Source: Gymnothorax reevesii (taxonomy: Eukaryota > Chordata > Actinopteri > Anguilliformes > Muraenidae). From it: DNA of 64,000 bases. The notes beneath the pieces were generated by a model, which saw only the letters and a list, made by a program, of their open reading frames with translations, was not told the origin of the DNA and made no database searches. Made by a program: the position numbers and the translations under genes. The stretch covers positions 112,652,219 to 112,716,218 of the forward strand of contig CM056577.1 in assembly GCA_029721435.1 (NCBI GenBank). Reading direction: 5' to 3'. Position 1 is the first letter of the stretch. Each line of letters begins with the position of its first letter. Shown piece by piece: positions 16,715 through 56,700 of this stretch.

Positions 16715-16750
16715 CAGCATGCTGGGCCAGCGGGGTGATTCCTGTCTGAC
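16715..16750 (-). CDS. Small exon, codes [11 protein letters not shown]
   Basis: The acceptor is GTGTCTCATTAG and the donor CTG|GTAAGT. It is 36 nt, phase 1 in and out. It is the most downstream internal exon found with confidence. Confidence 0.68.
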
Positions 16751-17856
16751 CTAATGAGACACAGACATGGCATGAATGAATTGCGTACGAATAAATCATG
16801 GGAAGAGCTTCTGCTGCCCCTCTTTTTTACTTCTATGGAATACAGTCTGCAGCTCTCATATTTTCTCAACATCTCGACAGGCCATCCTCAAAACCTGTTA
16901 ATAACTATTCCGACAAATCAAATTCATCCAGCGTCATCTTCTGTCGTCCTCTTTGACTGAGAGCATCTTTGTGTTGGATAAGACAAAACCTAGTAAAAAC
17001 ATGAGAAAATATCGGTAGGAAAGCGCATGCAGCAATTTTTAATTTTCCTCAGAAATTACAACATTCTAAATGGTAATCAGAATTATTTCAAAAAGTGCCG
17101 ACCACATCTATATCTGGATACACAGAAGGATTACGCTTCTCAACTTAGCCTCTCAATAATGCAGTGACCACCACTCCATTTGGCGAGATCTTAGCTTAGG
17201 TGCTGGAAAAAGTGGAAAAGTGTAAAGTAATAAACCATCTCTGCATAATTAGATGTATGCAGAATATTAATTCTACTAGCAAAGCAGGTCCTCTGATGAA
17301 GGTCTAATTAACTGAAAGCGTGGCTTATGAAGCAGATATTCTGCATAGATTTAAGTTTGCAGAAATCACTTGCATTACATCTCAATGGGCGATTAACATT
17401 TTTAAAGCCCCTGAGTGATAATGCAACAAATCAGTTAACTGCATAAGGAATACCTCTTATGCTGCATTTACAGATGAAAAATTTGTGCCCAATTTTCTGT
17501 CATAGGATCAAAGAAGTTAGACTTTAAGACTGTTTGACTGCAGAATTAAAAGTAATAATCAAACTTACTTAAACCTTCATGAACTCCTTGTGGATCAGCT
17601 GTGACTGTGGTCAAGAAAAAAAATTTTTGGGTTAGAAAAAAGTTTCTTGACTAAATGATGTTTATTTAATTCAGTCTCATTTGAGAGCCTGATATATACA
17701 TATATATACAGTACCAGTCAAAAATTTGGATATACCCACATTTATACAATAAATATTACATAAAGAAATAAGCTCCCTTTATTTTGCTAAAAAATATCTA
17801 AGTCCTAAATCCATCAAACTAACCAGCATTTGTTGTCATATTTGCTGAGCGTACTC

Positions 17857-17900
<44 letters not shown>

Positions 17901-18286
17901 CACTGGGGCAGTTATATGACTATTCTGAGTTGGCAGCTCAGCGGCTGCCGAGGTTCTAAAAGATGTGCTGCACTTGGGGTTCCCTTCCCATTGACCTTTT
18001 TGCCTTGTAAGTCTCAAAACTGCTTGACTTTAATTCAGCCGCTGGATAATGGAAGGAGCTTATTTGATTACTTCGCAAAATGTGGTTGTTTGAATATAGT
18101 CCAAAATTTTGGAATTATCATTCAAGCAAATTATTCTGTTTTGACTTTTGACTGTTCACCTCTTACCAGAGTCTATTTGACATGATATAGCTAGAGAAGT
18201 AAAAGAGTTTAAATTTCTCTACAAACTGTGACATCAGCAAAGTGGGTGCTGTGACATCAGCAAAGTGTGTCCAGACTTTTGACTGG

Positions 18287-18322
<36 letters not shown>

Positions 18323-21300
18323 TGAAGGTCTAACGTACTTACCCATATCCATAATGTCAGTCTGAGTCATGGTGTTCAGTGTGTCTCCTGTAACTTCAGT
18401 ACCATATTAAGACAATGAGTGAGACTGTTCAGTCACTCTGGGGTTGGGGCAGAGAGTAAATTTTTTTAATTCCTTTGGTCAATATAAAATGGAACACATT
18501 TAAGATGACCCACCTGGAACTGAGGTCTCAATGTGTCCACCTCCGAGGTTTACTGAATCTGAAGCATAGAAAAATTGGTATTCGGATATATGGTGGTGAC
18601 TTGTTGAGGAAATGCTCTTACCTTCATAATTATCATATCCCCAAAATACGAGTTCCGGGATATCATGATTTTGCCCCACCCACCGCCACCATGTCTGCCG
18701 CATCCACAGATTTTATCCGTTAGTGTGATAACTTTTAGTGCGATAACTCACAAAATACTTTACATTGGCCTCTCATTTTTAGCGTATGGGTAGATATGGT
18801 AGAGAAGATGAACTGATTAGATTTTGGGCAAGTATGCACTCCTAGGTTTGCCACCAGGTGGCGCTACATATTGAAAAAAATCGCTCTTTTAACCATATGC
18901 CTGGATTAACAATTACTTACACAGACCTCAAATGTGCCTCATATTGTAGGTCTGGTAAAGGGGAATCTAATAAAAGGGCCTTCGAGGAGCGGGCAATTTC
19001 AGGGATATAGCCATTGCTGTCGGCCGCCGAAGTTCTCCTGTAGATTTTTTTAAGATGAGACTTCGCTGAGCATTTTAGTGATCTCTGATCAGGATCAGTC
19101 ATGATTTTTTCCGACCCATTTCTTCCACAAAATTGACAGTTCACCATATGCTTCCAGGTTTAAATAAATGGTTGGACAGTTCCAGACCCAATTACAGTGA
19201 TTTCAGGAATCTCCTTAGCTGTTTCCTTGAGTTTCAGAAATCTAAAAATTCATGCATAATATTAGCCTTTCTTCCCATGCCACAACCAAGTTTCCAAAAA
19301 TGTTGGGATGCCATATAAAATGTCTATAAATACAGTATGCAATGCTTTACAAATAATTTTAAATCTATGTTGAATTGAATTTAGTATAAAGACATCAAAT
19401 CAGATGTTGAAAGTGAGACATTTCATTGTTTTTTGAAAAAAATATGTCCTCATTATGAATTTGATGCAAGCAACATATTTTTAAAAAGTTTGACTGGGCA
19501 TGTTTACTCTTTGTTGCATCAACTCTTCTTTTCAAACACTCTGTCAGTGTTTGGGAACTGAAAAGATCAATGTTTTCTCAATCTTGCTTGATGTAGGATT
19601 TTAGCTGCTTAATAGTTTGCAGCCCTCTTGGTCATATTATTTGATTGATAATAGGCCAGATAATTTCAGTAGGTGACAGGACTCAACTGCAGACAGGCCA
19701 GCTTAGCACCTGGACTCTTTTACCATGGAGCCATGATGGTGTGTAAGCGCAGAATGTGGTGTTCTTCATTGTCTTGCTCAAAATAAACAAGGCTTGCCCT
19801 GAAAAAACATGTGGATGCTGATACATGTTGCTGTAAAACCTACATTGTTCAGTATTCACAGGGTTTTTATGTGCAAGTTACCCATGCCATGTACACTAGT
19901 GCACCGCCATATTGTGGTGTATGCTAGCTTTTGAACTGTGTGCTGATAACAATTTGGGTAGTCCCTGTCCTCTTTAGCCCAGAAGACAAGGTGCTCATGA
20001 TTTCCAAAAAGAACTTTGCATTCTACTCGTTCAGACCAGGGGATATTTTTCCTCTTCACCTCAGTCAATCTTAAATAACCTTGGGCCTAGCCTGCAAACA
20101 GGCCCTGCGCTGGATTGGGGTGAGAGGCAAAAGAGGGCCTGCACAGAATATTTGAGTTCTGCCCCCTGTTCCGCTTGAGTTGTCATCAAAATGGAATCAG
20201 CCAATCACGACTTAGTGGAAGTGAGCTACTGCTCACTGAACCAAGACAGTTAAAACACTGCGACTTTTGACTGGGAGTGCGTTTGTTCGAAGTAGCACAA
20301 AATACCCCAACAAAATCTTACAAAAGCAAAGGAAGAAAACCAATTAGCATCAAGAGCTCAGTAGATGAATTTTGAAGAATTTACAAATGTTCTTTAAGAA
20401 CAAACTACACCAAAGACCTGGAAACGAGGCTTTTCTCGAAGTCAGTAGACAGCACGGCTAGAACATCTTTGCCATTTATTAGACTGTGAATAGCGAGCCC
20501 TTGTTCTCTTGCGCACCTTGAAGATATAATTCCTACGGCTTTTTTCAAATGATCCGTGTGATCAATAAATTCAGACGATGCCATGTTTAATGGGCTCTAT
20601 GCACGCACCAGTTTCGTGTTTGAGTGAAGGCCGCGCACCTACTTTTGGTCCACGAGATTGCAACTGGCATAATGGCTGTCATCGCTTCTGTCTACGCGAC
20701 CCAGTTACCCAGTGCTCTCTGAGTGATCTCGCTATGTAGCAAACAGATGTTCAGGCTCTCCCATCACACTCATTTGTATGAGGTAGAGGGACTGTCACAA
20801 TACGTAACATAAGTTGGTAATTATGGAAAATTGGAAGGGCACCCTCACATTCCTGCTCTGCTCTCTTTGGGACCAGTTACAATACGTAACTTTCATCCCG
20901 CTCCATCACAGCAGCAGGTTCATAACGTGAATGGAAAGACTGGGGATCTAATCTATTCAATACAATGCAGTAGATTAGCCCAGTAGGATAATCGACCGTC
21001 TCTAAGATGCGGGAACTTCCAATTTGCGTTCAAGCTGTAAACACTGCGTCATATTCTTCTGCTAAATGGGTTTAGCTACCATGTTTAGCTAGCATGTTGA
21101 ACATTTATTTGATTCCTATGCTCCTGGTGTAAGTCAGGTGTATGTGAATGCTCTTACACTGTTGTCACAGTGGGGCATTGAAATAGAACATTGGTTACAT
21201 ATTGTAACCCCAAATTCATAGCTCCACCATCGTCAGCTTGAAAAAAGTTTGTTTGGGAAAAGTTTGTTGTTTTTCCGATTGCGCGAATGGAATATACAGT

Positions 21301-24300
21301 GGATCAGGGGCACGTTTCCCCTTCCCAAAAGTGCAGTTGCTAATGAAGTTAGCAACTTACGTAGTTTGTAAGTTCATTCACAGTCCATGGGCCCAACTAT
21401 GTAAGTTAGTATCTGTGATTTCGGGAAACGAACCCTAGGTCTGTAGTCTGAAAATGTTGGCTGCAGACTCCGGTATGATTCATAATGGTGAAATTGCAGA
21501 GTCATATCATATCCATCCACCCGTCTTTGGGAAATGTGAGGAAACTAAGGAAAGAACTGAACTTAGCCGAAGCTGTAAGCTACGTAGCGGCACACAGCAG
21601 TAGTGTCCTGAAGAGCTGTCCTCGCATGTGTTGAAGTCACGAAGAAAAGTAAACCGACACCGGAATCAGAATTAAATAGACAAAGAAACAAAATAAAATG
21701 TTTTGAAAATGAATGTTGTTTTGGCCATTTAAAACGAAATTGTGTCTAGCATTCCAACACTAGCACAGGACTTAGAGCCCCGTACATAGAGCCCATTGAA
21801 TATAGTGGACTGTGGTTTTGTTTTCATTGTTTCACGTTCAGATTGATAAATGCCAATTCTTGAGGCAGATTTGGCGCACACCCATTTTTTAATTTTTTTT
21901 TTTGGTGTACGCACATTTGATAAATGAGGGCCATTGAGTGGTGAAGCTCCCAGCATCTTTACTTCTAAAGAATCAGCCTCAATGGCAGGGCTCCTGAAAT
22001 CACAGTCTCAAGGAATGAGATCTGTTGGTTTTCCGCTCTCCCTTTACCTGGGTGGCAGGTGTGATGACAGTCTGGCCAATCAGTGGCCAGACATGTTCAC
22101 TATATTACCTGGATTGAGTTAAAACTAGGATTTGGGGATTCCTGCTCTATAGGATGCTCTTTTATACGCTATCCTGTAACTGACCTGTTTCCAATTAACC
22201 TAATAAGCAGTGTGATGTTCTACCAGGTGTATTTTTTAGCATCATGCAACTATTTCAGTCCTTTATTGTCCCTGCCTTAGCTCTTTTGGCATCAAAACTC
22301 TTTTCTGGCAGGAAATTAAAAATGAGGAGATATTTATCAAAAAACAACATTTCTAAGTTCATTTGATATGTTGTCTTTGTATTATTTTCAATCAAATATA
22401 GGGGAGAAATGATCTGGTAATCATAGATTTCTGCTTATATCTACTTTTTACACAGCATCCCAACTTTTTTGAAAATAGTGTTGTAAAGTAGAATATTGCT
22501 ATTCAAAGAAACAACCTGGGAATTTTACTGACCTGTAGTGTTTGTGTGCCCACTGGTCATGGCAACATCATCAAGCCCTGTGCAACAACGTTTATTACTG
22601 CATGAAACCAGGAGGTAACATCAACACTCATTTTTTAACTTTGTGGAGTAAATGTAAAATAGTACTCCAGTCAAAACCATCTGTTCTTGCTTTTAGTGAC
22701 ATGACAGCAGTTGGGTTTAGATCCAATAGATACTACTAACTATACAGTGCAAGAACAAAAAAAAATAAAAACATTGTGCGGATATTTCTGAAACCCCAGA
22801 TACATAACTGCTGTACCCAGTACACTAGAGCTGAGTATGTCCCCTGGAACTAACATATACCAAGACATAAAAATGAATTACATTCTTAGTAGAGAATTGC
22901 ATGTTTACATGAGTGCTTATATGGGTAATTTCACAATAACTCTGCATTTTCAAATAAGACTTCAATTTCATCAGGAGGATTTTGTCAGAATGCAGAACAC
23001 TCTGAAAATCATTTCATTTATTTTTCCTGAAAAGTTTCATTTGAGTGTGTCAAAAACCATAACAGACTTAAAAGAATAATGAACAAAATATGACTTTTTT
23101 AATCATTCTTGTGATGAATTAACCCCTTTCTGCAGATGTAGACGCCGGCGTCCGTAAATTCCAAAATTTAATTCCTAAACAATTCAGTAATTGAATTTCC
23201 AAAAGTCTAGCTTCACTTGAATAATTTTCAAAAATCTCTGTGTCACAAATCCTGAGTTCTAAAGCTTAAATAGGCTCATGCACAACAGGAAAAATTGGCA
23301 AAATTTTGTATTCCGCGCAAAGGGGTTTTAAACAAAGTCATGAAATAGACAAAAGGAGGTCACCCTTAAACAGCCCAGAATCGTTTGCCACATATAAGAA
23401 TTCAAAAAAATTACATCTAAATACAGCAAAAGATGAAGTAATATTTCAAATCTGTCAACTCCTCAAATGCATTTTCTTTGAAATACGCATTTAGGTGGGT
23501 AACAGTAATGACAGTAATAGTGTTGACAAATCAAGATAAATGCACAGTGTAGGCTGTCGCCACATTTTCATCTTAGAAGAATCTTAAACATCAGCATCAA
23601 AAAAGTTATTTATCTAATACTGCAACCTTTACTGCAATTAAGGTACGAACAACCTTTTTCACCAAACCTTCCAGCTGCCAAACTAATTTGGAGCACTGTC
23701 CACCATTCTGAACTACCCTCCAGAACTACTTCACCACAGCCATCTATTGGTTCCCTGATGAACCAAAATTCCTGAGTTTTTATTGATTTGTATGAAGTGC
23801 CTCAGAACACCATTGACCTGAGCCTTGGAGACGCAGAAATATTGGGTAAAAAAATGATTGGTTTAAACTCTGGTTTAATTACATTTTTCGGTTTTTTACA
23901 TGAATATGGTTTCTATCAGGACAAATCAGGAAACAAAACCAGGAGAATTTGCTGTCATGGTTTGCTATGTGCTTTTTGCTTTCTTTGTTACTCTCGTCCC
24001 TGTCGACATCGTTTTCTTTCCCCATCGGATTTTTTACCCAACTGGCCGACTATTCCTGGGTGGTCCTTCCCCGGAGTCTATTTAAGCCGGAGGTCGCCAC
24101 GCCTCCTTTGCTGGAGTGTCAGATGTTACGTTGCTCACTTTGGCTTGAGAAATCTTTAGTCAGGGTTTGCCTTAAATATATATAATCTTTGTTTCTGGGA
24201 AGCTTTGCTGCTTTATGTTATTTGGCACTATTGTCTGGTGCCTTGTTAGTTTTCTCTCTTATTGAGATTTCTTTTCCTGTCTGGTTGCTCGCTTCGTTTC

Positions 24301-27300
24301 TGGCACTTAAGCCTTTTGTTTATTCAGAAACGCGAGCGCCTTTCCCCTCTAATTTTGCTCTACTCCACCTTTACCAGCCATTACATTTGCTTCAAAATAA
24401 CTAGATACAACATGATGAGTTTACCCTCTGGGGCCTTGGGACAGACAGAATTTTCTTTTAAAACTGAATTACTGGTCAAAAATATTACAAATAAAGTGAT
24501 TGTCTATGGTTTTGGTCTTACATGCTGAATTCTCCCATTTCAGTATTTATCACAGAAATAAAAAGCGCTGAATAAAAATACTTTAAGCAACTGGACACAA
24601 TATGCAAAGTTAATGTGAAATGACCCATATCTGAGTATGCTGAAAAATTGTTTAAAAAGGCAAATACTGTATTTAAATCATAATAATGTCTTATGATTCC
24701 CAAATGTGTTTGTTATTTTTGTAACATTTTCAGCAATCATAATTATGAAGTCTCAAGCATTCTGGCCAGGTCTCACAGTCTTTTGTAAGACTGTAAATAT
24801 ACTCAGCGCCATTAAAAACACAACGGTGAAGTATGTACTGAATTTGAGGCACAAGTGGAAATAAAGAAACGCAAGTGGTATTCCTGACGCACACCTTTTT
24901 CTATGGAAGCAAATCCATGAAATGAATTGAAAAAGCCTTTCTGCTAATGCATTTTAATTTTCAAATTTTACATTTCAAACTGAATTTTGATAACTATTTG
25001 CTGGGGCATCTTTTGAAAATTAAATCTAAAAGTTCTTTTCTTTTTCATTTAAATTAAGTCACAGAATGAGCAGCCTTGAAGAAGAAAATGAAAATGCAGT
25101 TTGGATTATATATTCTTCATTTTATTTATGAGTCAAAAATGTAGCTACATCCTGAAAATGAAAAGGCATTTCTGTTAATAAATTTTAATTTGAATTACGA
25201 GACAGATTTGCTTCCATATTTCTCTCTCCTGTGCCACAAGCCGTTCCAATTTCTTGATGCAGTGGCATTTTTCTTTTTTTTTTTGGCTTTATGTAGGCTA
25301 TTGACCGCACCCAAAAGAACAAGTCAAGTGTCACTGTACACATCACGACCAGCTCAATGTTTGTTATTACTGAAGTGCTTGGCACTTGGCGAACGTGAAG
25401 CGCTTCAGGATTACAATACCACGCGCTTGTCTTTGTTTCCACTCGCGCCTCACTGGAAAAGCAATTTCAAAAAATTGATTCTTCAATTTTCCGCAAATAC
25501 AGTACATACCTCACCGTTGCCTTTTTAATGGCGCTAAGCATATGTTTATTCTCAAATATACTTTTTTTAGCAGGCAGTTTGCAAGTGCATATTTTGTTGG
25601 GCAAAATCACCCACAACATATCACTCGTGATTTCTGTCAGAGAGGAATTCAACATTTAAGTTCTCTGCACTGCAGTAGAATGAGTGCTAAACTTGCCGCA
25701 AGGATGAGTCTTTCTTACCAGTGATATCTGCCTGTATATGCGAGCTGGTCACCGATTCCACACCTCGATCTATTCACATATTAAAACAAATATTTCATAC
25801 ACCTACCATGCCATGAAAGTCAATAGTAGTATGTCTGCTGAAATAATAGAGATAAAATAGCTCAAAATTGAAGAGAATTGAAATGACCGCCACCAGTCAC
25901 TAACACTCCTCCTCAATTGTTCGTTATGCTACAGGGCAATCCACCGGTATTTAGACAGTCACACAGTGCAAACAGGGCCTCCATTCCAATACGCTTTTCC
26001 AATTTGCCTCTTCTCCCACCACTGCCTACAGCCATGCTTTCAGATAGTGAGGTCAGAGAAAGACCTTTCACATGCAAGCAATACACAACAACATGACAGT
26101 CGTTATATAAAAATAACTGCATGCTTCAGTGATGCAAAACCACTGAGGTATGCAATTATTTCTGTGTAATGACCAGCATGGAGTTGCAAATTGCTCTTAT
26201 ACCATGGTTATCATGCACATACTGTATGTTTTGCTAGGGGCATAGTTTTTGTGTTTTAGCCCCACTTCGGTCATTGCTATACTACAGCTGTGTTGAAAAA
26301 TTCCACAGCATCATAGTAACAATCGAACAGTTGTTGTCGCATTGTGCCTTCTCCAATTAGTCAAAATCTCCAAATTAGCCAAAAATATGAATCGTTATTT
26401 CAGAAGCTCAAACATGTTTTCTGTGTCTATTCTAACTTTCACTTCCAATGTCTGCACCACTATAGGACAAAGTGTCAATTAAATATAGTAGCTTGGAATT
26501 CAAGTCTGGCAAATTGACACAAAGCATCAAAAGGCTAACGTGTTTTGGAGAAAATCCATCCCGAGTCACGGCTCATCAGGCCAGTGCTTAACCTCAGGTT
26601 TCTAACATGTTTGAAAACTACTTCATATTTGTGCAGTCAGAGGAAATTAATGCACACCGCAAGAATGACTTTCTACCAATTACAATTAGGTATTCAACAA
26701 AATACTCAGTAGGTTGTACAGAGGCATAAACATGCAGTTTACGGGCACCTGATTGACCACTGGTAATCATGAGGGAGCGAATAAACCCACAGCTCTGATC
26801 CTCTGAGCCCTTGTGTGTCCCCCTACAGAGCTTGCAAATGACACATGACACAGCATCTTTCACGACAAAAAGAAGAGGCCTTACCCAGTACATCTGTCTG
26901 AGGGATGATGGAGTGAGCCTCTACTGCTCCTGTTAAAACTGACAAATCTCCCTCAAACAAAAACATCTCACCAGGAAGACACGCCATTCTAGAATTCCTA
27001 TACTCTGCATTGCACTTCACAACAAATAGTTAAGGCAAATAACAATATGTCCTTAATTTCATTTAAAACCTCTGTGCATTCACTTGACATGCCTTTCTTT
27101 TTTTTTTGCTGTTACCTCAGATATACTTGAAATGTTAACACAGCAAGACAGGACTGTTTTGTTTAAGTATTTAGGCATGTAACAAATTAGCTTTATACTG
27201 CATAAAGATACCTTTATCTTGAAATATTTTTTGAACTATTGAAATTTACAGTGGCCGACAGGGGCAAATGCGCTGCAACGGCCCAAAACATCTCCAATTG

Positions 27301-30300
27301 GGGAAACGCACTGCAAAAACAGCGGCTTGGAGTACTTCCGTTGTGTTAATGTCTAAATGCAGCGTTTTTCTCTTGCATTTACTTTTACAGTTTGCACGTT
27401 TTTTTTGCAGCGCCTTTCTCCAGTTGGAAAAGTTTTGGGCCATTGCAGCGCGTTTGCCCCAGTTGGCCACCGTAGAAATGAGTACAATTATTTCACCTCA
27501 TATTTTTGTCTTGTTTTCCAAAAAAAAGAGAAGATTTTTCATCACGATAGAACAATAAAATACAAACCTGTTGAATGGAGCAGTGAATCAATGCCATGAG
27601 GGTCAACTAAAGAGGATGAAAGTGGGTTTACAGTGGGAGTGTGACACACATGGAATTACGGAAATGTATTATATTATTTTCTTGTTGGATAGAGTTTATC
27701 CCAATCCTCATTTTAATGGAATATATTAAACTTTGCTTTCGTGCTTATATTGCAAACAAAACAAGGCAATTTGGCATAATTGAACCTCACCCACAGTTTG
27801 AAACTATAGAACTATCATGGGCTTGTGTTTCTTTTCAAGAAAACTTGTAGATCTAATGTAGAGTCAGTGTTGATTACCCTGAAGTGCAGTCATTCAGACT
27901 GTTTCACAGCTGGATCACCAGCTGATGGCTACATTCCAGTGCTCTACAGGGGCATCCAAGTCTTAGTTGTGCGGCACAGGGTGCAGACGCAAAGGTGCAG
28001 CTTTGGTGTGGCACTGCATCACAGCAGCATGGTGGTAGATAGCGTGAAACCACTGTGACTGTTGACCTTTCTCGAAACAGGCATCAGAGTGTCCCCAAGT
28101 GTCCCCGCCGGTTTTTTCATATAAAGGAACTAGACTTCATGGGACTGGATGCACTGGCCCACAACTGAGCCAACATGCTTTTATACTTCTTTGCCGCATT
28201 TTTCACTGCTTGGTGAATGTTACATCTATTTCCCAGACATAAACTTTGCCGACTGTTGATTGTTGGTCATTAGCCTGTGAGGCCTTGATGCTACCTTGTC
28301 CCCAGCACAGCAGACCATCTGACGCAGGCAGAAAACGGGGAAGGAAACCCTCACCCAGATTGCTCTGGCCCCTGGACCTACTGGACCTTTACTTGAGTGC
28401 ATACGCAGGGCCAGGGACACTATGAATGCCCATTCACTACGTGAACATAGTATGCAAACAAGCAGGTAAGGTAAACTCGCTTTCAATGCATTCAAATGCC
28501 TTCTATGGAAAGTTTTACAAGTTCTGAAATATATGTTTGTGCTTGGATGGCCTGTGTCTACACTGAAAGTGTATGTCACAGCCTTATCAGCCAACTGCAC
28601 AAAAACAGGCAGGGGGAATTCGGACAGCATGGGAAATGAGCAGAAAACCTGTATTGAGTCATGACACCCTGTAGGCGTGGTAGCTCTCATAAAATTCAGC
28701 TCATTACTGTCCCAGGGACCTCAAAAACCAGTCATAACATTAAGTAATCTTGGGGCTGTAGATCCAAAGATACTGTCATGTTAACAAGTTAAAACTAATA
28801 TATTTTTAAACTAATAGATTTTTTCTACTGGTTTCATTGGGAATGGTGTTACTTTCTAATTTAAGTTTACACTACATAAAGCTCTTGCTAAAAGCACTAC
28901 AGTTTTTGAGCCTTCTGTTTTTCTCTGCTCAATCACAAATAGACATTTCTTCATTATCATTTAAAATTAACATCTGAAAATAATAATGATAAATAAATAA
29001 ATAAATTTGTATAATCTTACCTGTCATATCATGATGGATGTCAGTGACTAGTTGGTCGCCTGTTGGCAAACCAATATAATTAATGCACATTACCATCTGC
29101 ACAAATTATTTATTTGAGTAAAATGGCAAAATACTTAAAATAAAATAATAATAGCTGAAATACCTGTCTGATGAATCATTGTCACTGGCCGTTGACGGCC
29201 ATTTCCATTTCCTGAAACACAGGACATCTCTAGTATGAAAAATGTCACTTTCCTCCTTCTGATGGTAATCCATTATCCTTTGCATTATATATCAATGGAT
29301 TGTATTGTTGTGACATCATCAGCTAAGCCAGAGAATGTATTTTACAATCGGGGGCTTTTTTACTTCCCTAACATGTGTGTCTATCATGGTGAAAATATTT
29401 TGTTTTTGCTGCGCCAATATGTCTTGTTCCTGCGGCACCATTTGACCAAGGGTCAATAGAGGCCATAGCTATTGTAAAACCCCATAGATCATTTGCAACC
29501 AGCATGCCGAAGCCTACCTGGCAATGGCAGTTGGGGAAACATGCTATTATGGGAGATATATTGTCATTGAAGAAGAATGGCACTATCATGTGTTCAAACT
29601 ATTTTGTCAGTGGTAAGATAATTATTTTTCCCCTACAAAAATGTAACATGCCATAGTTTACAAACTTAAATATCTGGATTATTTACTTTAGTGGCCTGAT
29701 TATCTATCTAAGTGCTACGTTGAGTCATTTTTGGCCTGATGTGGTGGTATTGGCGCATTGCCACTGGTATACTCCAGATTCAATTCCATTGTCTTTAATT
29801 GGATTAACCCATGGACAATCCTAGACAACTCCAGACAATCATTAGTGGCACACTTATTACCCAATTTTTTTCTCTTTTTTTTTTTGTGGAAATATGAGCA
29901 CCAGATTTTATGATTCATCTTTATTTATTTATTAATGAATCTATATATGAATGAGTTGTAAGAGGAAATGGAAGCTCCTCTGAATCACAAAAATAATAAA
30001 ATTAGATATTTTTCAAAAATGGTATGCATGTCCTGAATTTGCTGAAACATGTCCTGAATCTGCTGAAACAGTGAAAGAGTAAGATAAAACCCTTGCTTAC
30101 CATTAGCAGAGGCAGAATCAGTACTGGGAACATCAACAGAACCCCCCGAAATAGTACATGCGCATTGATGTTATATATTGATGTTAAATAGTACATTTGC
30201 ATTCACTGCAAATTCTTCTCGCATTTTGTACTTGATACTGCACTGAGTAAGATGTGACTTTTTCTATCACATCACATGGTTTGCAAGATATCGCTTTGAT

Positions 30301-35722: not shown

Positions 35723-35756
<34 letters not shown>

Positions 35757-44700: not shown

Positions 44701-47700
44701 CCCAATTTATTCTATTTTTGCATATGTTTCACGCTTAAATGTCTCATATTGTCAAATTAATTGTAATATTAGACAGAGAGAACTCAAGTAAACACATAAA
44801 ATGCAGATTCTAAATGATCATTTCATTTATTGAAGGAAAAAAGCGATCAAACCCTACTTGGCCCCATCTGAAAAAATAAGTGCTTGCTGAGCTTCTAAAT
44901 CAACCAATTAAATTTCATTAAGAAATGGGTTCAATTTCACCAGACCCTGTTGAATAAAAAGAATCACTTAAATAAACCTTTTCTGGCAATGTGAAGTGGG
45001 AAAAAAAGCCATGCATAATGCCATAGTCTAAATAAATAAAAAAAACAGACAAGAAACAAAGTTGTTGTCATGTACGGTATCTCACGTGAGTACACCCTTC
45101 ACATTTTGACAATTCATTTATTATATCTGTTCAAGGGACACACTAACAGAAATGAAACCTGAATATATTCTAGAGTAGTCATTGTACAGTATGTGTAGCA
45201 GTGTAGATTTACTGCACTGTCCAAATAACTGAACAAACAGGCACTATTTCCAAAATGGGTGGCAACAAATTGTGTACACCTCACCGTCAACATGCCAAAT
45301 TGTGTCCATAGTGCCAATATTTAGTGTGACCAAAATTGTTGTCTAGCACTGTCTTTATTCTCCTAGGTATAAAATTCACCAGAGCTGCACAGGTTGTTGC
45401 TGGGATCCTCCTCCACTCCTCCATGACAACTTCATGGAGCTGCTGGATGTCGGACACCTGCTGCTCCTCCATCTTCCTCTTGAGGATGCCCCACCGGTGC
45501 TCAATGGGATTCAGGTCTGGAGACATTCTTGGCCACACCATCACCATCACCTTCACCTTCAGCTTCTTCTGGAAGGCAGTTGTCATCTTGGAGGTGTGTT
45601 TTTGGTCGTTATCATGTTGGAAAGCTGCCGTGTGGCCCAGTTTCCGAAGGGAGGGCATCATGCTCTGCTTCAGAATGTCACAGTATATGTTGGAATCTAT
45701 TATTCCATCAATGAAGCGCAGCTCCCCAGGACCAGAAGCACTCATGCAGCCCCAGACCATGATGCTGCCACCACCATGTTTGACTGTAGGCAGTACACAC
45801 TTGTCTTAGTCCTCCTCACCAGGGTGCCGCCACACATGCTGGACACCATCTGAGCCAAACAAGTTTATCTTGATCTCGTCAGACCATGGAACATGGTTCC
45901 AGTAGTTCATGTTCTTGGACTGGTTGTCTTCGGACTGGAGCCAGCTGATCATTTGGACCCCATGCAGCTTTGATTTGGAGCTCCTGAACCTTGAGTATTT
46001 CCTGCTGTGCCTCAAGGAGAAGTGAAGGAGGGCTCCCATTGAGAAAATGAAGCGGGCAGCTCTGAAAATAGCACACGAGGTAGTGAGATAAGGTCAGTGT
46101 TTAAGGAGTTTGCTGCCTGTGTGTGCAACGAAATTCCTTTCCAGCTCAGAACCTCCATCTCATCAGTTTAGGTCACTCTGAACACCCAGGCCTCCAGCCC
46201 AAGACCCGCAGGCATCTGCACATCCAGATAATCCAGATCACATCCAGTGGGCTTCCCGTCGTCCAGTCCAGGTGCTGAGGGCGTCTCCTGTGCAGTCCAG
46301 ATCCTGTGGGCATTCCTTCACCCAGTCCAGGCCCTGCGAGTGTCCCACCCCCAGTCATAATCCCGCAGGTGTCCCAACATCCAGTCCAGGTCTTCCAACA
46401 TCCTGCCACCTAATCCAAATCTTGGGGATGTTTCACCATCCAATCCAGGTTCTCCGGAAATCCCGCCACCCAGTTAGAACTTATGGATGTCCCGCTGCCC
46501 TGTCCTTGTACTTTGGCCATTTTTACACCCAGTCCAGGTCTCGGTAAATCCCGGTTGCATCTTGTCCTGGTCTAGTGGGCTTAACAGTGCCCGCTGCTAT
46601 CCCAACAGCAGTAAACAGGCATTTGTTCCAGGTGCCCACGGTCATCCCAGTGGCAATGAACAAGTCCTTATACCAGGCTCCAGCACCCACTCCAGTGGGT
46701 AGATCTTTGTTCTAGGTCCCTGTAGAACAAACACCCGTTCTAGGCTCCAACGCCAACCCTATTACGCAAACTGTTGTTCCAGGCTCCAGCTCCTTCTCCA
46801 GTGGACCAGTCTTCATTCCAGGCCTCAGCCCCCATCCCTCCGTCATTGTCCCCCTAACCTCTCCCACACGATGAGTGGCGTGATGTGTGACTGTCCCGTG
46901 GAAACCATTTTTGTCTCTTGCCATTAGTTGAATATGAACACTGACCTTATCTTCGTCAACCAATGCATATGGTTCCTTATAAGGTCATCTGATGGTTTTA
47001 TGACTCAGATGATGGGTTTTTGGCAGACCTTTCATTGACAGGCCACTCCTATGAAGTCATTACTGTTCTAAGTTTACCCCCCTTCTTTAAAAAAAGGCTC
47101 TAAATGTGGCTTGCTGAAGGTCCAGAATCTTAGAAATGGCTTTGTAAACTTTTTACAATTTAAATTACCTAAAGGACTTTTTTTTTTTTTTTTTTTGCTG
47201 TATTTACTGCATTTTGTGTTTACTCTGGTTAGCTTTGTCTCAAAGTACATTATTTATTTTAAACAGCTGCAAAAATATGTTTTACATCAGAAATATGTAA
47301 AGCAGACGAGGAAATGGCAAATACTTTTTATGGCATTGTATTGATATCTTTCAAAACTATTGCTTGTGCTCGCTCATTTTTATTTTTATTTATTTATTGT
47401 ATTTATTTATTTTTACCTCAGGCCTGTTTATTCTTTTTCAATGGAGTTCAAATCATAATCCTTGAAGCGGAAATGCATGCTGTTTTCTTTTGAGCTTTGC
47501 ACTCAGAACATTTGTCTCAGCCAATTCCAATGAATGCACCTTGTTGTTGAAGTTTTGTTACAAGCCATTTCCTGGCTTAAACAACACATAATCCATAATA
47601 AATATTTGTTTATATAACCCCCTTCGTATTTCCATTTTAGTCATAAGTGCAACTAAAGAAGTGTAAAAATAAATATACATATGCATAAATATATATGACC

Positions 47701-50700
47701 TCATCTGTTTAAAATTAAAGTCTGTGTTGGCTAGGGTCTCATACCTGTCTGATGAGACTGTGGATGCACTCCAGAGATGGTACCAGACAAGCTTCCCATT
47801 TGTGTTTCTGAGACTAATCCAGATGGAATCAGAATTACCATTAAACACAGGGAGATAGTGGTGACATTGCATGGCAATTATCAATAGCACTACGTTTGTG
47901 TGAATTATTATTATTATTATACACTCACAGCCCGCATTACCTGTCACATTAGCTTTTTAATGGAGATGGCCTGTTTTAAGTAGCATCAAAATACATGACG
48001 ACAACTAAATACGTAAAACAGGCAGACATTAAAAAGGTTAGTTTTATGTGTGGAAAAACAGAAAAATTACCAAAATTCATGATCAAAGTGATTTAACCGT
48101 TGTATCACTTTTGGTGTCCCATGTCGGTTTTATATTTTCACAAACTTCAGAACTCTTAATAATGACAGAACAGAAAGGCCACAAATAACTGTTCACGAAA
48201 GTGATTTGTTGAGGGGGATGTTTTTTCAAATACCAGTAGATTGGCTGCGGGACCAGAGCTCTGTGTTGGTAAAGCTTTCTTTACCCACATGAAGGCAATA
48301 AATGGCAGCTGAGGATTCTTTACTAGTGCAGTATGCTCTTACTTACATCTCAAAGTGACAAGCATAACAGTGATTAAGTTTACTTTTTTGGTTGTGCAAA
48401 TCTCCATCTGAGCCTTTTTTGGGGTGTGGTGGAACAGACAGTTGAGTATGAATGTCTGATCTACGGGAACAGTGCAATGATATCAAGTAAGGATAGACAA
48501 ACACCTTTAGGAATTTTTCTATACCCTTGATGAATGCTATAAAGAATTAGCGCTGCTTTCGAGACTAACATGGGTCCTACCCAGTACTGTATGTGTGTGC
48601 CTAACAAAGTGGGCGATGCATAATAACCGTTTCTTGAATCCATTGTTTTAACTGAATGGGAATAATTTGATTAGTATTTCTAACCAAAATGTAATAACTG
48701 ATATTGCAATAAGATTTGGAAAATAATTACCTTGGGAATGAATTGGTGACATAGGACTCCCTTGATCCCCGGCACCTGCGAACAGGATTATTATTTAGCA
48801 GCAGAAGCAAAGGTTTTTTTTTCCATTTAAGCTACGTGGTAGTCCTTGAATTACACAGCACCACACAAAGACCCAAAACTTATTCACCTGGGAAAAAAAT
48901 ATGCCTAAACTTTTTACAAGTAGCTTCCGTACCAGCATCCGTACTAGACCCTGTGGGCACTATAGTGCAGAGATCTGCTACCCACAAGCAATGAGCCGTT
49001 TGTTGAAATTTGAAAATGAACACGTTTCTTTCACTATACATGTTCACAATATATTCACTATAAATAGAAGGTGAAGCCAAGAAATTTCGGCCTTACCATG
49101 AGTACTGGAGGGCTGGGCCTGAGGTTCTCCACCATTACCACCTGCACATCAAATTACATCTGGGCTAAACACACTCATTTTTATGGTAATAGATCTTCAT
49201 AAAATGCATAAGTTTATGCTGCATGTAGAAGCGGAGAGAGCCGCATAATTGCCATTTATATATATTAATTCACTTAGCAGCAAAATAAATAAATAAAATA
49301 ATAATAATGCATCAGTTTTATATAGCACTTTTCTGGGCACTCAAAGATGCTTCACAATGGATACATTATTCATTCACTCACACATTCACCCTCTGATGGT
49401 AGTAAACAACGTTTGTGTACCCACAGCTGCCCTGGGGCAGACTGAAGGAAGCGTGGCTGCCAGTATGCGCCTACGGCCTCTCCGACTACCACCAAACATT
49501 CGCACAGAGCCATACAGGAGTGTTGATATATTGCATGTTTTTGTTCAATAATAAAATAAAAAAAAACATTGTGAGCGGATATCTCAACGTCAAGATGAAT
49601 AAATGTCAGTGAAGATAAAAATATTATTACCCTGGATTACTCCTGTGGTTGAAGTACTGCTTGAGGTTGCTAGAAAACAGAAACTGCTGTAACTAATCTT
49701 TAGCACTTCAAAAAATGACCAATACCAAGTGAAGGATTTCTGGCGTATAGTGTAACTTACAGCTGTGACCAGTGTGTACTGGACTGACCCCATTCACCTT
49801 GTGTCCTATAAAGAAAGAAATTGACAATGGAATTCAGGAATATAGGGAAAAGCAGACTCCAGCAACAAACGTGCAAACGTTTAAGCTAGGCTCACGACCG
49901 ATTTTATTGGCCAATCCTGAGGTTTTCTGAAGGACACAAGCTACACTAATATCAACAATTTGTCATTTTGTAGAGTATTGCATTAAATATGGACATAAAT
50001 TTGAGGAAATGATACTTTCCCTTACCATTGGATGAATTGGCTTCAAACGAAGCATCATGCTGACTTGGTGTACCTAGAAAAAAACTAATATGATTTGGTG
50101 GCAGCAAAACTCATAATGCAGCCTCATGACAAAAGCCTCCCGCCGAGCAAGTTTGTTTGCTTACGTCTGTAGCTTACTCAGTTTACCACCACGGAACATT
50201 TTGGGGGTCTGATAGTGATAACATGCAGTTAATTATCTTCTTAAGCAGTTAAATTGTTTGTTTTGCAGTGGCATCCTATATGACTAAATCAATCCAGAAT
50301 TAGCTTGCATTAAAACTTATCAAGATGACCGCATCTACTGTGAGTGATATTATTCTTTGTGACCTCCAACGAGTCAAAGTAGATCAGTTTAATCTTACCA
50401 GTGTCTTTTGGTGCCACGGTGCTTTTCTGTGCTCCAAGTACTTTCAAATGGAAAAGAGAAAAATATACAAAGTATGATTTTCGTGAGCTGCATTTCAGTG
50501 AATGAAATTTTTTTGACAACTTCCTGCTTGAAAAAAAATTGAGAAAACAAATTGCCTGAATGTATAACCCCCAAAGGTTAAAATGATTATTGTGTAAGTC
50601 GACATTTATATTATTATTCAAGATGTTTAAACCTTAGAAATGACATTGCATTTCAATTAGTTGAACTTTGTATTTATCCACACCTTTTGTTTATTTTATG

Positions 50701-53700
50701 CACAGCCTGGGTGGCGTATTAAAGTTAACACTTATCGTTTGTTCAGTGACGAAGCCAATGCAGTCCCACTATTGATTTTTTTTAAACTTTCAATTCAGCG
50801 AATATTGTTTCCTCTGATGAACACATTGATGTGGGCAATGCTTGAAAGATTTTTTTTTTGTACTACAATGCATAAAATTGATGTTACCTTTGGTAAAATT
50901 TCTCTGTAAGGAATTAGATCAGTCATTTGATGTTAATAGTTGCTTTTATCATGTATTAATGAACTATGACTGCGCATAGAAGTTCATTGAGAATCTTTGA
51001 ATGAATTTGCTTTGCCAGCGCATAGAAATATGTCCTTATTGTTGCATCACTAGACATATGGTGAATGCCCATCATCAGAGCAACTGAGAGGGTTCAACAC
51101 ATTGGTGGCAAGTTGTTAACTTCTCACCCATATTCATATCTTGAATTTTCGAGTCATCCTCATCTGAAAAGAAAAGGAAATTGAGGCAATTCATAAAAAA
51201 AACACATCTTCTTCTTGTAGCCCATATTTCAGGTTTTCATCTGCTGAGTATTTGGAAGCCTAAAGAGAAATAACACCTGTGTTTGTTAAATCTAATCAAG
51301 CTGAATTTCTCCTATCACTATGAGTTTGAGATTTTTATCCAAACAGTTTTAAGTACATTAAAAAATACATTATACTTCCATTAACCCCTTCAGTGCCAAG
51401 GTCTTTTTTCACGGTTTTTTTTATATGAAGGTCGATTCGTCACACAGCCATCTTTAAAAAGCTGTTGTGAATTTCCTATTCAAGTAAACAGTTTAAATCT
51501 TTTACCGCATTTTTCTGGGTCTATTTTTCAAAATTCTGCAGTCAAAATCCTTTTCAGGCCAAAGTTTAGAAATTCAATACTGAGAGAAATCTTTTGGAAA
51601 TGTAAGTCAATGCACAATGCCACTTCGCAATCTGCACGCTCGAAATGGCTTTCCTTTCACCTGCCATTGCAAGACACACTAACCATCCTTGTAGGATTTT
51701 GCTTTTTGTCGGTTGGTGGAATGAGGGATGAGAGTTGTCTTTCTGTAAGACGAAGGGGGTCCTCAAAGGATGTAAGCTCCCCATTAGCTTGGGTGCAAGC
51801 AACATGGTTTTCCTCAAATACAGTAAGGAGGACATGAATTCAAAATTCAAGAAGGGGGAGGGATTTACCAAGCTTTTTGTCCACTACATTAGAACTGCAA
51901 ATGACAATGCCTCAAGTGAAAAAAATACTTTCTAGCACCATTTCACACATCTTCTCATTTTTCATACGATGGTATGCATGCTGAAAATTTGGTCCCCCGG
52001 GAGTGAATATAATAACTATGGCTGTAAGAGTAGCTACAAAAAAGTGTTGTAGTTGGAGGGATAGCTAACACTAACGTTGGACTGGCTGGTTATACCAATC
52101 ACTAATTCGACTATAGTCAATGCCAGATATCCTGCATGTTAGCCAACCAGCATCGCTTTGAAATATGAACTGCACGGAATAATATGCTGCATTTCACATT
52201 AGTTAGCTAGATAGTTTGAAGTTATTACAGTACATGTAAACTGTAACCTAATTAGCAAGCTAGCTAGCTAGCAGTTATAACAGCGCAAGCGAACAATTGG
52301 ATAATGTCCGCTAAAGCTAGTTCCATGCTGATCATTGAGTTTGTCCGAGTAGATGACAATTTCAGCTATTTTGTTATATTATATCTGGCCAGCAACCACT
52401 TCCAAACAGGAGCTAAACCAAATGCCTCAACTCATTTACACTCAATGAGTGACCCACTAACTGTTGAAATCGCCCTAGTTTTATGGTGCCCAATGAACTG
52501 CTGCCACCGTGAGGTAGAAAATGGAACTCTAAAAACCAGAGTTAACTCGGGAGTGGCACTGAGGCATCAAACTTCTACCCCGATTATACTCAGGCATGGC
52601 ACTGAACAGGTTGATTTTATACTCAAATCTCTGCACATAGTGAATTTTCTGTATAAATACAGGCCTGATCGTGTTATATTGCCTTCAGCAAAGCAATTTT
52701 TGATTAATTTGGAAGGTCATTTTATAGGTTTTTTTTTTTTTTCATTTTTAAATATAGCACTTAAGACCATATCTGTTTGCAGAAGTTTGAATTTGGCTAT
52801 AATACTGAGATTTCTGAAAGTTTATGTGGGTAAATATCATTTATGCATGCATATTAAGTGCATATGTGCTCCTTTGAAATTTAAATATTCAACTGAGCAA
52901 TTGTATTAATTAAAGATTTATTTCTTAGATTTTTAGATTCACCAATCTATAATTTAACACTGTGGTTCGATAATTTTAGTAATTTCGTAATTTCAAGCTG
53001 AGTTTTATATTTCTTTATGCAAATTTTTTTTTTTTAATTTACAACATTATAGTGTATAATTAGCTTTGAGAACATGGTCACGGGTTTTTATCCAATCAGA
53101 ATAGCAAAAGATTGGTCCTGTACGGTAAGCTTGAGAAAATCTGATTGCTTTAGATTTTATTGAATAAATTATATATGTTGTATAATCACAGAATTTGCAG
53201 TTAATTATTTGGAAAAATAATCATATTTTTCCAATGGATATGCTACTGTTAGCTTCCAAAAATTTTCGAGGATTTTTGGTTTTTATCAGTTTTTTTTAAA
53301 TCTGCATTTCAGTTGTTTTCCTATTCTTGAGCAAAATTGTTTGACTTGCAAACATAATCCCCTCTGACCAGCTTAAATCATTTTCTGAATCTGTTCAGGT
53401 GGGTAAAGGCTTTTCCTACCATCTTCCTCCTCTGAAAGCTCCTCTCCAGTCTCCATTTCCAACTCTCTTTCTTCCGGTTCTTTCTCTGAAAATAAAAATC
53501 ACATCACAATAACTTCTATTGCATGTCTATTTATCATTTTCAAATTCAGAAAAGAATACACTCACTGTACAAAGGTTGACATGTCAGCTTGTGAACCTCT
53601 TGCTTTATCAACGGTTTGATTTGTTTGATATGTTGTTCCTGAATAAGAATTTTCTGGAAGGTTCCCCCTCCGCTGTGGGATTGTGAACCTCTTGCTTTAT

Positions 53701-56700
53701 CGACGGTTTGATTTGTTTGATATGTTGTTCCTGAATCAGAATTTTCTGGAAGGTTTCCCCTCCGCTGTGGGATTATAGCACTCCCTTGACATTGTCCCAA
53801 AGTAATAGGACTCGACTGGCAGACAGACCTGGCTTTTCCATTAGTCAGTGAGCACAAAGCTGCCGGCACACCCCGGTGGATAGGCCAGGACATTACAACT
53901 CCCTTAAGACTTTCCTAGTCTTTGTTCTCCTTTTTGGTGTTGAATATATCTCTCCTATAGAAATTACTCTTTCAGAAAATAACAGATAATTTACCTACAT
54001 GTCTTAACAAGATCTGCAGCCTATGTGCCTCTGTAGCTGTTCTTTACAAGTGCATGATGCCAACCTGTCACCTCTGCAAAAAAAAGAAGCTGTCTAATTG
54101 GTTTGCTGCACAAAAGTTGAGCAAGCACGTCTGACCAGTAGTGAGACTTGTTACACAGAAATAGATGCCAGGTTACACAGAAAAGGGCTATGTTCACAGA
54201 AACAGATCAAGTTTTGTCATGGACTAAACTGAACCTCCAGAGAATCTCCATTCAATGTTAGTATAGATAAGGACTGGTCTTAAGTTATGTTTTCTCGCCC
54301 CATTGCGAATGTTGAACATAGTAAAACTGTCTCTGCGTTTCTGCAATCATTCTGTCTCTAATCCAAAGAAGTAATACTAAAGTACTTTCCCATCTTAATT
54401 GCAAAGGAAAACACATATACAAAGTGAAGGAAATAACTATTGAATGCATCAACATTTTTCTCAGTAAATATATTTTTAATGGAGCTGTTGACCGGATGTT
54501 GGTAACAACCCAATTAAATCCACACAAACAAAGAAATCTAAACAAATAAGTCCATAAATTCAGTTATGTGTAATAAGGTAGAATGGCACAGGGAATAAGT
54601 ATTGAACACATGAAGAAAAGGAGGTGAAAAAGGCACGGAAAGCCAAGAAACCAGCTGAAATCTTTCAATATTTCGAAAGCAATCATGCGCCTTTCAGCAC
54701 AAATTAATATCACCTGGTTTATTCCTAATTGATGGCCTATAAAAAGTTCTCATTACCAAGCTGTGACACAAGAAGTATCTCATGATAGGCAAAAGCAAAG
54801 TGCTCTCTCAAGACCTTCACAACCCTATCGTTGCAAAACATACTGATGGCATTGGTTGCAGACATATTTCTAGACTTTTGAATGTTCCAGTTGGCATCGT
54901 TAGGGCCATAATCCCGAGGTGGAAAGAAAATTATTTCACCATAAACTGGCCACAGCGAGGTTCTCCTTGCTAGATTTCTGACAGTGGACTCAAAAGAATA
55001 ATTAGAAGAGTTGTCCAAGAGCCAAGGACCAGTCGCGGAGAGCTTCAGAAAGACTTGGAATTAGCAGGTACAGTTGTTTCAAAGAAAGCAATAAGTAATG
55101 CACTCAACCGCCATGGCATCTATGCACGTTCACCGTGCAAGACTCCACTGCTGAAGAGGAAGCATGTTGAAGCTCATTTAAAGTTTGCAGCACAACATTT
55201 GGACAAGTATATGAAATACTGGGAGAATATAGTCTGGTCAGATGAGACCAAAATTGAACTCTTTGGATGTCAGAGCACATGCCATATTTAGAGGAAAAAT
55301 AGCACTGCATATCATCCCCAAAACACCAAGCCAACAGTGATGTTTGGAGGTGGAAACATCAGCATATAGTTCTGGCAGACATAATTGAAGGAAGGATTAA
55401 TGGCGAGATGTATCAAGACGTTCTTGATAAGAATCTGCTGCAATCTACCAGGATGCTGAGGATGAAACAAGGATGGACATTTCAGCAAGACCATGATCCC
55501 AAACACACAGCCAAGGAAACTCTCAATTGGTTTCAAAGAAAGAAAATAAAGCTGCTAGAATGGCCCAGTCAATCACCTGACTTGAGGGCAACTGAAAATC
55601 TATGAAAACAACTGAAGATCAGAGTTCATAGAACAGGCCCCGAAACCTAAAAGATTTGAAGACTGTTTGTGTGGAAGAATGGGCCAAAATCACGCCTGAG
55701 CAATGCATGCGACTAGTTTCTCCATACAGGAGGCGTCATGAAGCTGTCATAACCAAAAATGGTTCTTCTACAAAGTATTAAATAAATTTCAGTGTGCGTG
55801 TTCAATACTTTTTCCTTGTGTCATTCCACTTTATTGCACGCAACTTAATTTATGGAGTTATTTATTTTGATTTCTTCGAATGTCTTTACTTGAATTGTTC
55901 CTGAAAACTATTTAAAATTTCATTTCAATAGCCCAGAAAAATGTTGAGCATACATTACTTATTTATCCCACTGTATATATAGTATTTTTTTTTGTTTTAT
56001 TTTGTAGCATGCATTTGACCCCTTACATGTCATACCTTCAACTGGAGCAGTTGAAACTACGGGTGCCAAAAAGACCACTGCTGAAAATATTAAAATATTT
56101 CTGGGGAAAAAACATTAAGCAACAAAGAGATCTCAAAAAGTTGAATACATCTTATGTATAGTATCTCATATAGTCAATTAATTGTATTTTAAAATGATCA
56201 CTTCATGCGCTAATGTAAAACAATGGAAATTCAGGAACACCCTGTATAAGAAAAAACTTCCCAACAGGCTACATAAATTTTGTTTTATAATGTGCAAATA
56301 TATCATGATATGAATAGATGTAAAATATTTACATTACACAGTTACATTACTGATTATTTCATAAAAGTATCCCTCACTTTGTCTTCATATTCAAGCTTAT
56401 GCAAATTAAATGCATCATAGATATTTGCATGGTCTGAGTTTGATAGTGTAAAACCACATGTATACTAGTCTTTTGCTTACATAAACATCACTTTTGACAG
56501 CAATAAGCTGCAGTAAAAAACACACTTCACAAACAATATGTCCGCACATATCTGCATGGTGTATTTTTCAGGCAATTTAGTTCCATAATAATAATAATAA
56601 TAATAATAACAAGTGTCAATGTCACTACAGTGATATGCACCAACGTCAGAGAAATCAAAAAGCTCTCTGAGGTTCATTCCCCATCAGATACACCTTGTGC

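Follow-up and report, generated by a model that had tools for sequence, protein, structure and literature searches.

The locus

This report concerns a 64,000-nucleotide (nt) stretch of the genome of the muraenid fish Gymnothorax reevesii (contig CM056577.1, positions 112,652,219 to 112,716,218), hereafter called the window, and a gene of many small exons on its minus strand. Our model of this gene runs from 57081 to 8045 in 33 exons, which together form one open frame of 493 codons plus a stop; exon choice was guided in places by eel proteins. All 32 introns are GT-AG. The first intron is in phase 2 and those between exons 2 and 33 are all in phase 1, so that exons 3-32 (30 exons) are all phase 1-1. 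In the following list, exons 3 to 16, 18 to 21, and 24 to 31 stand as in the model.

57071-57081, minus strand: exon 1, coding part, ATGTTGTCTCG; ATG TTG TCT CG, giving MLS and a split R
56036-56100, minus strand: exon 2, phase 2-1, signal peptide
53420-53485, minus strand: exon 3, acidic stretch
51128-51163, minus strand: exon 4, acidic
50399-50440, minus strand: exon 5
50026-50073, minus strand: exon 6
49761-49805, minus strand: exon 7 (45 nt)
49631-49669, minus strand: exon 8
49097-49141, minus strand: exon 9 (45 nt)
48731-48775, minus strand: exon 10 (45 nt)
47745-47807, minus strand: exon 11; two possible acceptors, 47807 or 47813
44574-44618, minus strand: exon 12 (45 nt)
44292-44339, minus strand: exon 13
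44076-44114, minus strand: exon 14
43039-43083, minus strand: exon 15 (45 nt)
42872-42916, minus strand: exon 16 (45 nt)
38857-38889, minus strand: exon 17, placed by eye on Anguilla DHTGSSSQIASTD
38461-38517, minus strand: exon 18
32951-33004, minus strand: exon 19
32713-32757, minus strand: exon 20 (45 nt)
30381-30437, minus strand: exon 21
29164-29211, minus strand: exon 22, 14/15 residues identical to Anguilla
29021-29059, minus strand: exon 23, 9/12 identical to Synaphobranchus; not present in the Anguilla isoform that was compared
27568-27606, minus strand: exon 24, weak donor GTTTGT
26885-26929, minus strand: exon 25 (45 nt)
25719-25769, minus strand: exon 26
22533-22577, minus strand: exon 27 (45 nt)
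18514-18558, minus strand: exon 28 (45 nt)
18343-18387, minus strand: exon 29 (45 nt)
17569-17604, minus strand: exon 30
16715-16750, minus strand: exon 31
16532-16576, minus strand: exon 32 (45 nt); main frame SAAEQYVTSGQGPE, second frame LPQLNSTSHLVRVLK
8045-8079, minus strand: exon 33, end of the main frame, TENVELEDSC and TGA stop; conserved ENVELEDTC tail
7954-8079, minus strand: second-frame tail of the terminal exon, VQKMWNWRIPADFHIKPRVKILRYRFQCMEHQPTWKSSVPAH; stop at 7951-7953
7591-7596, minus strand: polyadenylation signal AATAAA, probable 3' untranslated region (UTR)

The initial annotation, made from the bare sequence, had proposed at least 26 minus-strand phase 1-1 exons between 16715 and 56080. 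These exons are real and now number 30. The gene itself reaches further, to exons at 57071-57081, 16532-16576 (phase 1-1), and 8045-8079, the last of which carries the stop and lies more than 8 kilobases (kb) beyond that range. The start given as 56080 was wrong; the exon in question begins at 56100, is phase 2-1, and encodes the signal peptide. Its identity to the corresponding eel sequences is 18/21 in Anguilla, 20/21 in Synaphobranchus, and 19/21 in Conger. Exon 1 was found with a pattern of MLSR followed by the donor gtaaga, orthologues starting with MLSRN. For exon 17, automatic alignment gave no in-order placement on Anguilla (4/10 elsewhere). The statement that all but three exons end in G proved exact: 27 of the 30 have this end base, the exceptions being those at 49761 (T), 32713 (C), and 17569 (A). 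The reported absence of Cys and Trp also holds, the protein having no Trp and a sole Cys as its last residue, outside the range first described.

The exon set is far above what chance would give, and the gene is real. Both strands were rescanned for AG-exon-GT segments using our own simple splice matrices (consensus values from general knowledge), and candidates were required to have 30-70 nt, an AG acceptor, a GT donor, a length divisible by three, and an open frame without Cys or Trp. Between 16.5 and 56.1 kb, 29 non-overlapping phase 1-1 candidates lie on the minus strand versus 1 on the plus strand; in 60 order-1 shuffles the count averaged 2.4 and reached 7 at most. With the length fixed at 45 nt, 12 candidates remain on the minus strand and 0 on the plus strand (shuffle mean 0.25, maximum 2). 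Minus-strand phase 2-2 candidates are not raised (1, shuffle mean 2.4). Those of phase 0-0 without Cys or Trp are also raised (8, shuffle mean 2.4), and we read them as alternative open frames of the same short exons. An earlier exon scan with strict splice-site thresholds had recovered only a handful of exons.

An orthologue group without a proper name

What is this gene? Judged by its sequence, it is the orthologue of zebrafish si:ch211-80h18.1, a member of an uncharacterized fish group. A first assembled peptide (31 exons), used as a protein query, matched at least 71 proteins; searches covered targets of 0.55-1.75 times the query length, and the window-peptide search scored the 8000 candidates sharing most words. 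The best matches come from Conger (55% identity over 100% of the query, expect value (E) 2e-123), Synaphobranchus (53%), Anguilla (52%), and Megalops (40%). With the 57 C-terminal residues of the Megalops protein as query, 79 proteins were retrieved among 115 candidates, including one from the bowfin Amia ('mucin-21'). Within these lengths and candidates, every match with a species name comes from a ray-finned fish, judging by the names, from which we also take the groups to be eels, tarpon, clupeids, otophysans, a salmonid, osteoglossomorphs, acanthomorphs, and bowfin.

In NCBI and UniProt, the homologues, which we number P0001-P0125, form one orthologue group under many unrelated automatic names: mucin-19, hornerin, sericin 1, PE-PGRS54, autotransporter adhesin BpaC, aggrecan, and apomucin, and further filaggrin-2, dentin sialophosphoprotein, collagen, homeotic protein ocelliless, and putative lysozyme-like. 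Three homologues (one from Solea, two from Oryzias) carry a precomputed PF01391 collagen label. Pfam returned no family for the window protein at E 10; six homologues gave four without a match and two with sub-threshold matches to unrelated families. NCBIfam, run on four homologues, produced one sub-threshold match and nothing significant, PDB sequences searched with the Anguilla and Amia proteins gave no match at E 1, and Pfam and PDB searches with the tails returned nothing significant. An identity as mucin, collagen, aggrecan, or hornerin was rejected, the defining Pfam domains being absent from the window protein. The initial annotation had called the gene unrecognized, which is right for Pfam and overlooks the fish orthologues already predicted automatically in NCBI and UniProt.

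The window gene shares with the si:ch211-80h18.1 group an MLSRN-type start, a signal peptide, an acidic block, exon-sized cassettes, the ENVELEDTC end (here ENVELEDSC), a second-frame tail, and, among elopomorphs, collinear exons. It differs in the Ser for Thr of EDSC and in two apparently decayed cassettes, and is otherwise of the same kind.

Exon order is clearly conserved among elopomorphs and less completely further out. The 32 window exons from 2 to 33 were placed on orthologous proteins by best local alignment, and the longest increasing run was taken. This run comprises 28 of 32 exons in Anguilla and in Synaphobranchus, 27 in Megalops, and 26 in Conger; it is 19 in Pangasianodon and Alosa, 17 in Lates, 16 in Danio aesculapii, and 15 in Amia. 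Permuted orders gave a mean of about 8.8 and maxima of 13-15 (13 for Anguilla), and shuffled peptides maxima of 12-15. At the level of proteins, the gene thus passes the check on exon order in related fishes that the initial annotation had proposed. Together with the homologues and the full-length open frame, this bears out a gene made mostly of phase 1-1 exons.

A probable secreted protein built of cassettes

The encoded protein consists of a signal peptide, an acidic Glu/Asp block, 28 cassettes of 11-21 residues rich in Ser, Thr, Gly, His, and Asp, and a conserved tail ending in Cys. Its composition (11.8% Ser, 11.6% Gly, 8.9% Thr, 8.7% Asp, 6.3% His, 1.2% Lys; Trp 0, Cys 1) gives an isoelectric point of 4.37. 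When the 28 cassettes are aligned at their right ends, weak preferences appear for H at -6 (7/28), T at -5 (6), D at -4 (6), T at -2 (9), and G at -1 (16). Repeat copies in Amia include SSHTDSAG and SSHTDLTG, found with a pattern requiring that ending. The pattern suggests that a single module of roughly 15 residues (45 nt), copied as symmetrical phase 1-1 exons, may be the ancestor of the cassettes.

Because the exons are symmetrical, a cassette can be skipped without breaking the frame. Nineteen pairs of database isoforms were compared, on protein sequences rather than against exon DNA; many differ by cassette-sized blocks, others by single residues or by larger or mixed pieces. The blocks measure 13 and 25 residues in Pangasianodon, 25 and 15 in Danio, 12 in Megalobrama, and 14 in Silurus.

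Two further minus-strand segments resemble cassettes. The segment at 30099-30143 is homologous to an Anguilla cassette and has a good donor and no AG at the expected acceptor, as in a cassette being lost. The one at 22809-22847, homologous to Anguilla PGDMLSTSVLDTA, has no usable in-phase donor and is perhaps a second decaying cassette.

An AlphaFold2 model of an Anguilla isoform (21 aligned rows) has a mean predicted local distance difference test score (pLDDT) of 43, with 591 of 685 residues below 50. Ten-residue blocks above 60 occur at 1-10 and at 651-670; the latter lies in the second tail described below and has no secondary structure assigned. As modeled, the protein is most likely intrinsically disordered, secreted, acidic, and poor in Cys.

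Two open frames at the end of the gene

Exon 32 and the terminal exon carry a second open frame, +1 to the main one, which continues to a stop 91 nt past the main TGA. Its consensus up to the main stop is NST(T/S)HLVRVLKVQKMWNW(R/K)IPAD with close variants; past the main stop it reads FH(I/M)KPRVRFLRYRFQC, followed by about 14 less conserved residues. The second tail is basic and contains Trp (...LVRVLKVQKMWNWRIPADFHIKPRVRFLRYRFQC...), and the main tail is acidic and ends ...GAENVELEDTC. In its best-scoring piece, the window's second frame is 88% identical to the tail of Anguilla isoform X6 over 42 residues.

Of the 125 fetched fish proteins, 89 were found by pattern to end in the main tail (ENVELEDTC, with up to two letters changed) and 29 in the second. 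Seven match neither pattern; one of these, P0089 of Amia, ends QNVELEDTC and is a main tail missed by the pattern, which raises the main tails to 90. The 29 second-tail proteins are not independent, since 17 are cypriniform and several come from one species. They span Elopomorpha, Osteoglossomorpha, Siluriformes and Gymnotiformes (one protein each), Cypriniformes, and Acanthomorpha, a grouping that we presume from the species names. Counted from its Met, the second tail has 39 residues in the window and in 25 of the 29, the other four having 38, 36, 41, and 41. All 29 have Asp where the second frame runs over the main stop; if the frames overlap as they do in the window, the main stop of those genes is therefore TGA.

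Is the second frame kept as protein? In the overlap, the third positions of main-frame codons are the second positions of second-frame codons, so that a change silent in the main frame alters or stops the second protein. Among eight four-fold sites of the main frame (S, G, G, P, G, V, L, T/S), six show one and the same second-frame residue in 28/28 rows and two in 27/28. This reading assumes identical main-frame residues in those species, for which the near-invariant main tail speaks in general rather than for each species. Three of these sites (V, L, T/S) are partly conditioned on the tail pattern, which requires MWNW-I-A. All 26 second-tail matches found without the pattern also satisfy it. 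Row P0042, out of register because two residues are lacking in the overlap, was set aside, leaving 28 of 29. The A/T site varies in the second frame (Gln 23, Leu 5), as does an upstream T site. Free silent sites would hardly remain fixed over such splits. Across 18 alternative-tail proteins, the majority fraction averages 0.83 in tail columns versus 0.55 elsewhere.

Past the main stop, 17 distinct tails are identical to the window at 9-17 of 18 core positions. The 13 distinct replacements there have a mean BLOSUM62 score of 0.62 versus -0.33 expected from random single-base changes, a modest signal (P 0.028). A degenerate pattern scan of genome and viral contigs for tail DNA of other species gave 0 matches, and the codon test of the second frame was therefore made from proteins. 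In the window's own genome, the tail query gave five matches, namely the tail itself, exon 32 (E 0.10), and three elsewhere (E at least 0.47), with no other convincing copy (best match outside the locus E 0.47).

How would the second frame be entered? Annotated isoforms of other fishes appear to reach it by frame-shifting splicing at or upstream of exon 32. The Anguilla isoform and one Danio isoform have a 14-nt shift at exon 32 and acanthomorph isoforms one of about 20 nt, distances deduced from isoform residues rather than from DNA; in other Danio and cyprinid models, the frame shifts further upstream.

We regard a second coding frame as probably the best explanation of the conserved tail. 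More specifically, we lean toward the last two exons being truly dual-coding, with an acidic Cys-ending C-terminus and a basic Trp-containing one, both selected since before the split of elopomorphs, osteoglossomorphs, and other teleosts, and switched by splicing. In the window species itself, the second tail is a putative product.

Evidence on the other side and alternative explanations

Several observations weigh against this interpretation and its wider frame. The window position matching the 14-nt shift of Anguilla X6 has TG rather than AG; TG acceptors do occur in human genes, according to passages of PMC2374985. Within 130 nt, the only stop-free AGs in the right frame lie at -47 and -50, with scores of -0.8 and -5.7 versus 5.2 for the main acceptor, and no shifted right-frame acceptor or donor was found around exons 29-31 of the window. 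Annotated isoforms of other fishes do not agree on how the second frame is reached. The proteins in that frame come from automatic prediction by programs that favor open frames, and the main bias of the comparison is that the second frame is visible only in proteins annotated in that frame. More than one Cys occurs in 32 of the 89 main-tail isoforms. Exon order is weak outside elopomorphs, Amia and Danio exceeding the larger control maximum by one only. Lastly, a function can be read only from composition and two passing expression mentions.

The leading alternative grants that the gene is real and holds the second tail to be untranslated, the last 120 nt being kept as RNA or DNA, as a UTR element or splicing enhancer, with the open frame as a by-product. 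Automatic models with differing entry routes and the want of a good second-frame acceptor in the window speak for it. Folding of the spliced window RNA was not unusual (z +0.7, for one sequence), the tail length is fixed to the codon in 25/29 although the last 14 residues diverge, and the replacements past the stop are conservative, if modestly so; these points argue against it, and we think it unlikely.

Ribosomal frameshifting by +1 is known from antizyme, and the second frame is +1 to the main one. A shift at or before the main UGA, rather than splicing, would suit the Asp over the main stop in every second tail and the conservation that continues across that stop. The isoforms of other fishes in NCBI, however, look as if splicing at exon 32 or upstream of it brought them into the second frame, and the second frame is also constrained in the exon 32 overlap, which would be needless for a shift at the stop. 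With no stimulatory RNA structure in the window, this route is quite improbable.

Could the gene be a distant relative of elastin, collagen, or the secretory calcium-binding phosphoproteins (SCPPs) and SIBLING proteins? Elastin is secreted, has undergone exon duplication, and contains hydrophobic VPG/VGV repeats as well as Lys cross-link modules. SCPPs combine acidity, secretion, and disorder with S-x-E phosphorylation sites and small, frame-neutral cassette exons, and starmaker-type proteins are of a similar kind. The window gene resembles elastin in its secretion, exon duplication, and short symmetrical phase 1 exons, and SCPP/SIBLING and starmaker-type proteins in being secreted, acidic, disordered, and built from frame-neutral cassettes; some members of its family are named collagen or dentin sialophosphoprotein in databases. 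Of the three S-x-E sites in the window protein, only one lies in the acidic block. The initial annotation had judged the peptides not elastin-like, and inspection agrees: VPG and VGV occur singly, neither they nor Lys cross-link modules are repeated, and the protein is acidic, rich in Ser, Thr, His, and Asp, and disordered. The window protein matches no Pfam family, its homologues match none or only unrelated ones below threshold, and no sequence similarity to SCPP/SIBLING or starmaker-type proteins was detected. Elastin borders are in phase 1, according to passages of PMC3458006, as here; SCPP introns are in phase 0 according to PMC6732285, unlike the phase 1 introns of the window gene. Such kinship is very improbable.

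Least credible is a decaying pseudogene copy, which the two homologous exons with broken splice sites would suit, against 33 exons with canonical sites in one intact ATG-to-stop frame and no other convincing copy of the tail in the genome.

The dual-coding reading has its nearest parallel in the splicing-accessible coding 3'UTRs of Preussner et al. 2020 (PMC7392665), where a frame shift through splicing near the penultimate exon carries the open frame beyond the main stop and into the 3'UTR. The present family differs in a second tail that is near-constant in length across distant fishes, basic, and Trp-containing rather than Pro-rich. Entry also appears to be through alternative acceptors or upstream shifts instead of skipping of the penultimate exon, which here has a length divisible by three.

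Other features of the window

Three transposase-like open reading frames, at 13033-13713 (plus strand), 45287-45805 (minus strand), and 31309-31845 (plus strand), all lie within introns of the gene, the first of them in its last intron. Those at 13033-13713 and 45287-45805 match Pfam transposase/DDE models above cut-offs; the one at 31309-31845 has no Pfam transposase match and is Tc1-like by eye only. Upstream of the gene, a 145-base-pair tandem repeat forms two arrays with a near-identical unit (58996-59587 and 60337-60858). An Rfam scan of the window gave no match at the gathering score.

Possible function and significance

We hold with good confidence that the window contains one complete gene orthologous to si:ch211-80h18.1, encoding a secreted, disordered, acidic cassette protein whose last two exons are read in two frames. 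Its cassettes would have multiplied by duplication of symmetrical exons from the module of about 15 residues, and splicing may set protein length through cassette skipping. The family's last exons would yield either an acidic or a basic C-terminus; conservation of the frame is seen in the sequences, and translation of the second tail is presumed. Such a switch perhaps alters the anchoring of the protein in a matrix.

The literature, searched by the zebrafish locus name and by LOC numbers, gave no described function for si:ch211-80h18.1, and a search on small phase 1-1 exons in teleosts returned nothing on the gene, as judged by title. Two papers mention its expression in passing. One passage of PMC9540346 has it marking the supporting-cell cluster SC0 of the adult zebrafish inner ear, and a table in PMC5752677 lists it after mild brain injury near mgp, ctgfa, loxl2b, lamb1b, and col5a2a. 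Given the signal peptide, acidity, disorder, lack of Cys, and both of these mentions, we consider a role as secreted matrix or gel material the likeliest: the protein may act as a disordered component of an extracellular matrix or gel, made by epithelial supporting cells among others, and its composition makes O-glycosylation and Ca2+ binding probable.

The initial annotation found a real and complete gene from bare sequence, in a family already predicted automatically in other species. That family is old and widespread among ray-finned fishes. It has no proper name, probably owing to a coding sequence scattered over some 30 tiny exons of low complexity, and bears differing and wrong automatic names in many species. 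A name and a structure are useful, as the gene marks an inner-ear supporting-cell cluster in a vertebrate that regenerates. What most deserves following up is the conserved two-frame C-terminus, which lies mostly beyond the range first described. Should both tails be made, vertebrates would have here a clean and deeply conserved example of one gene end shared by two selected reading frames.

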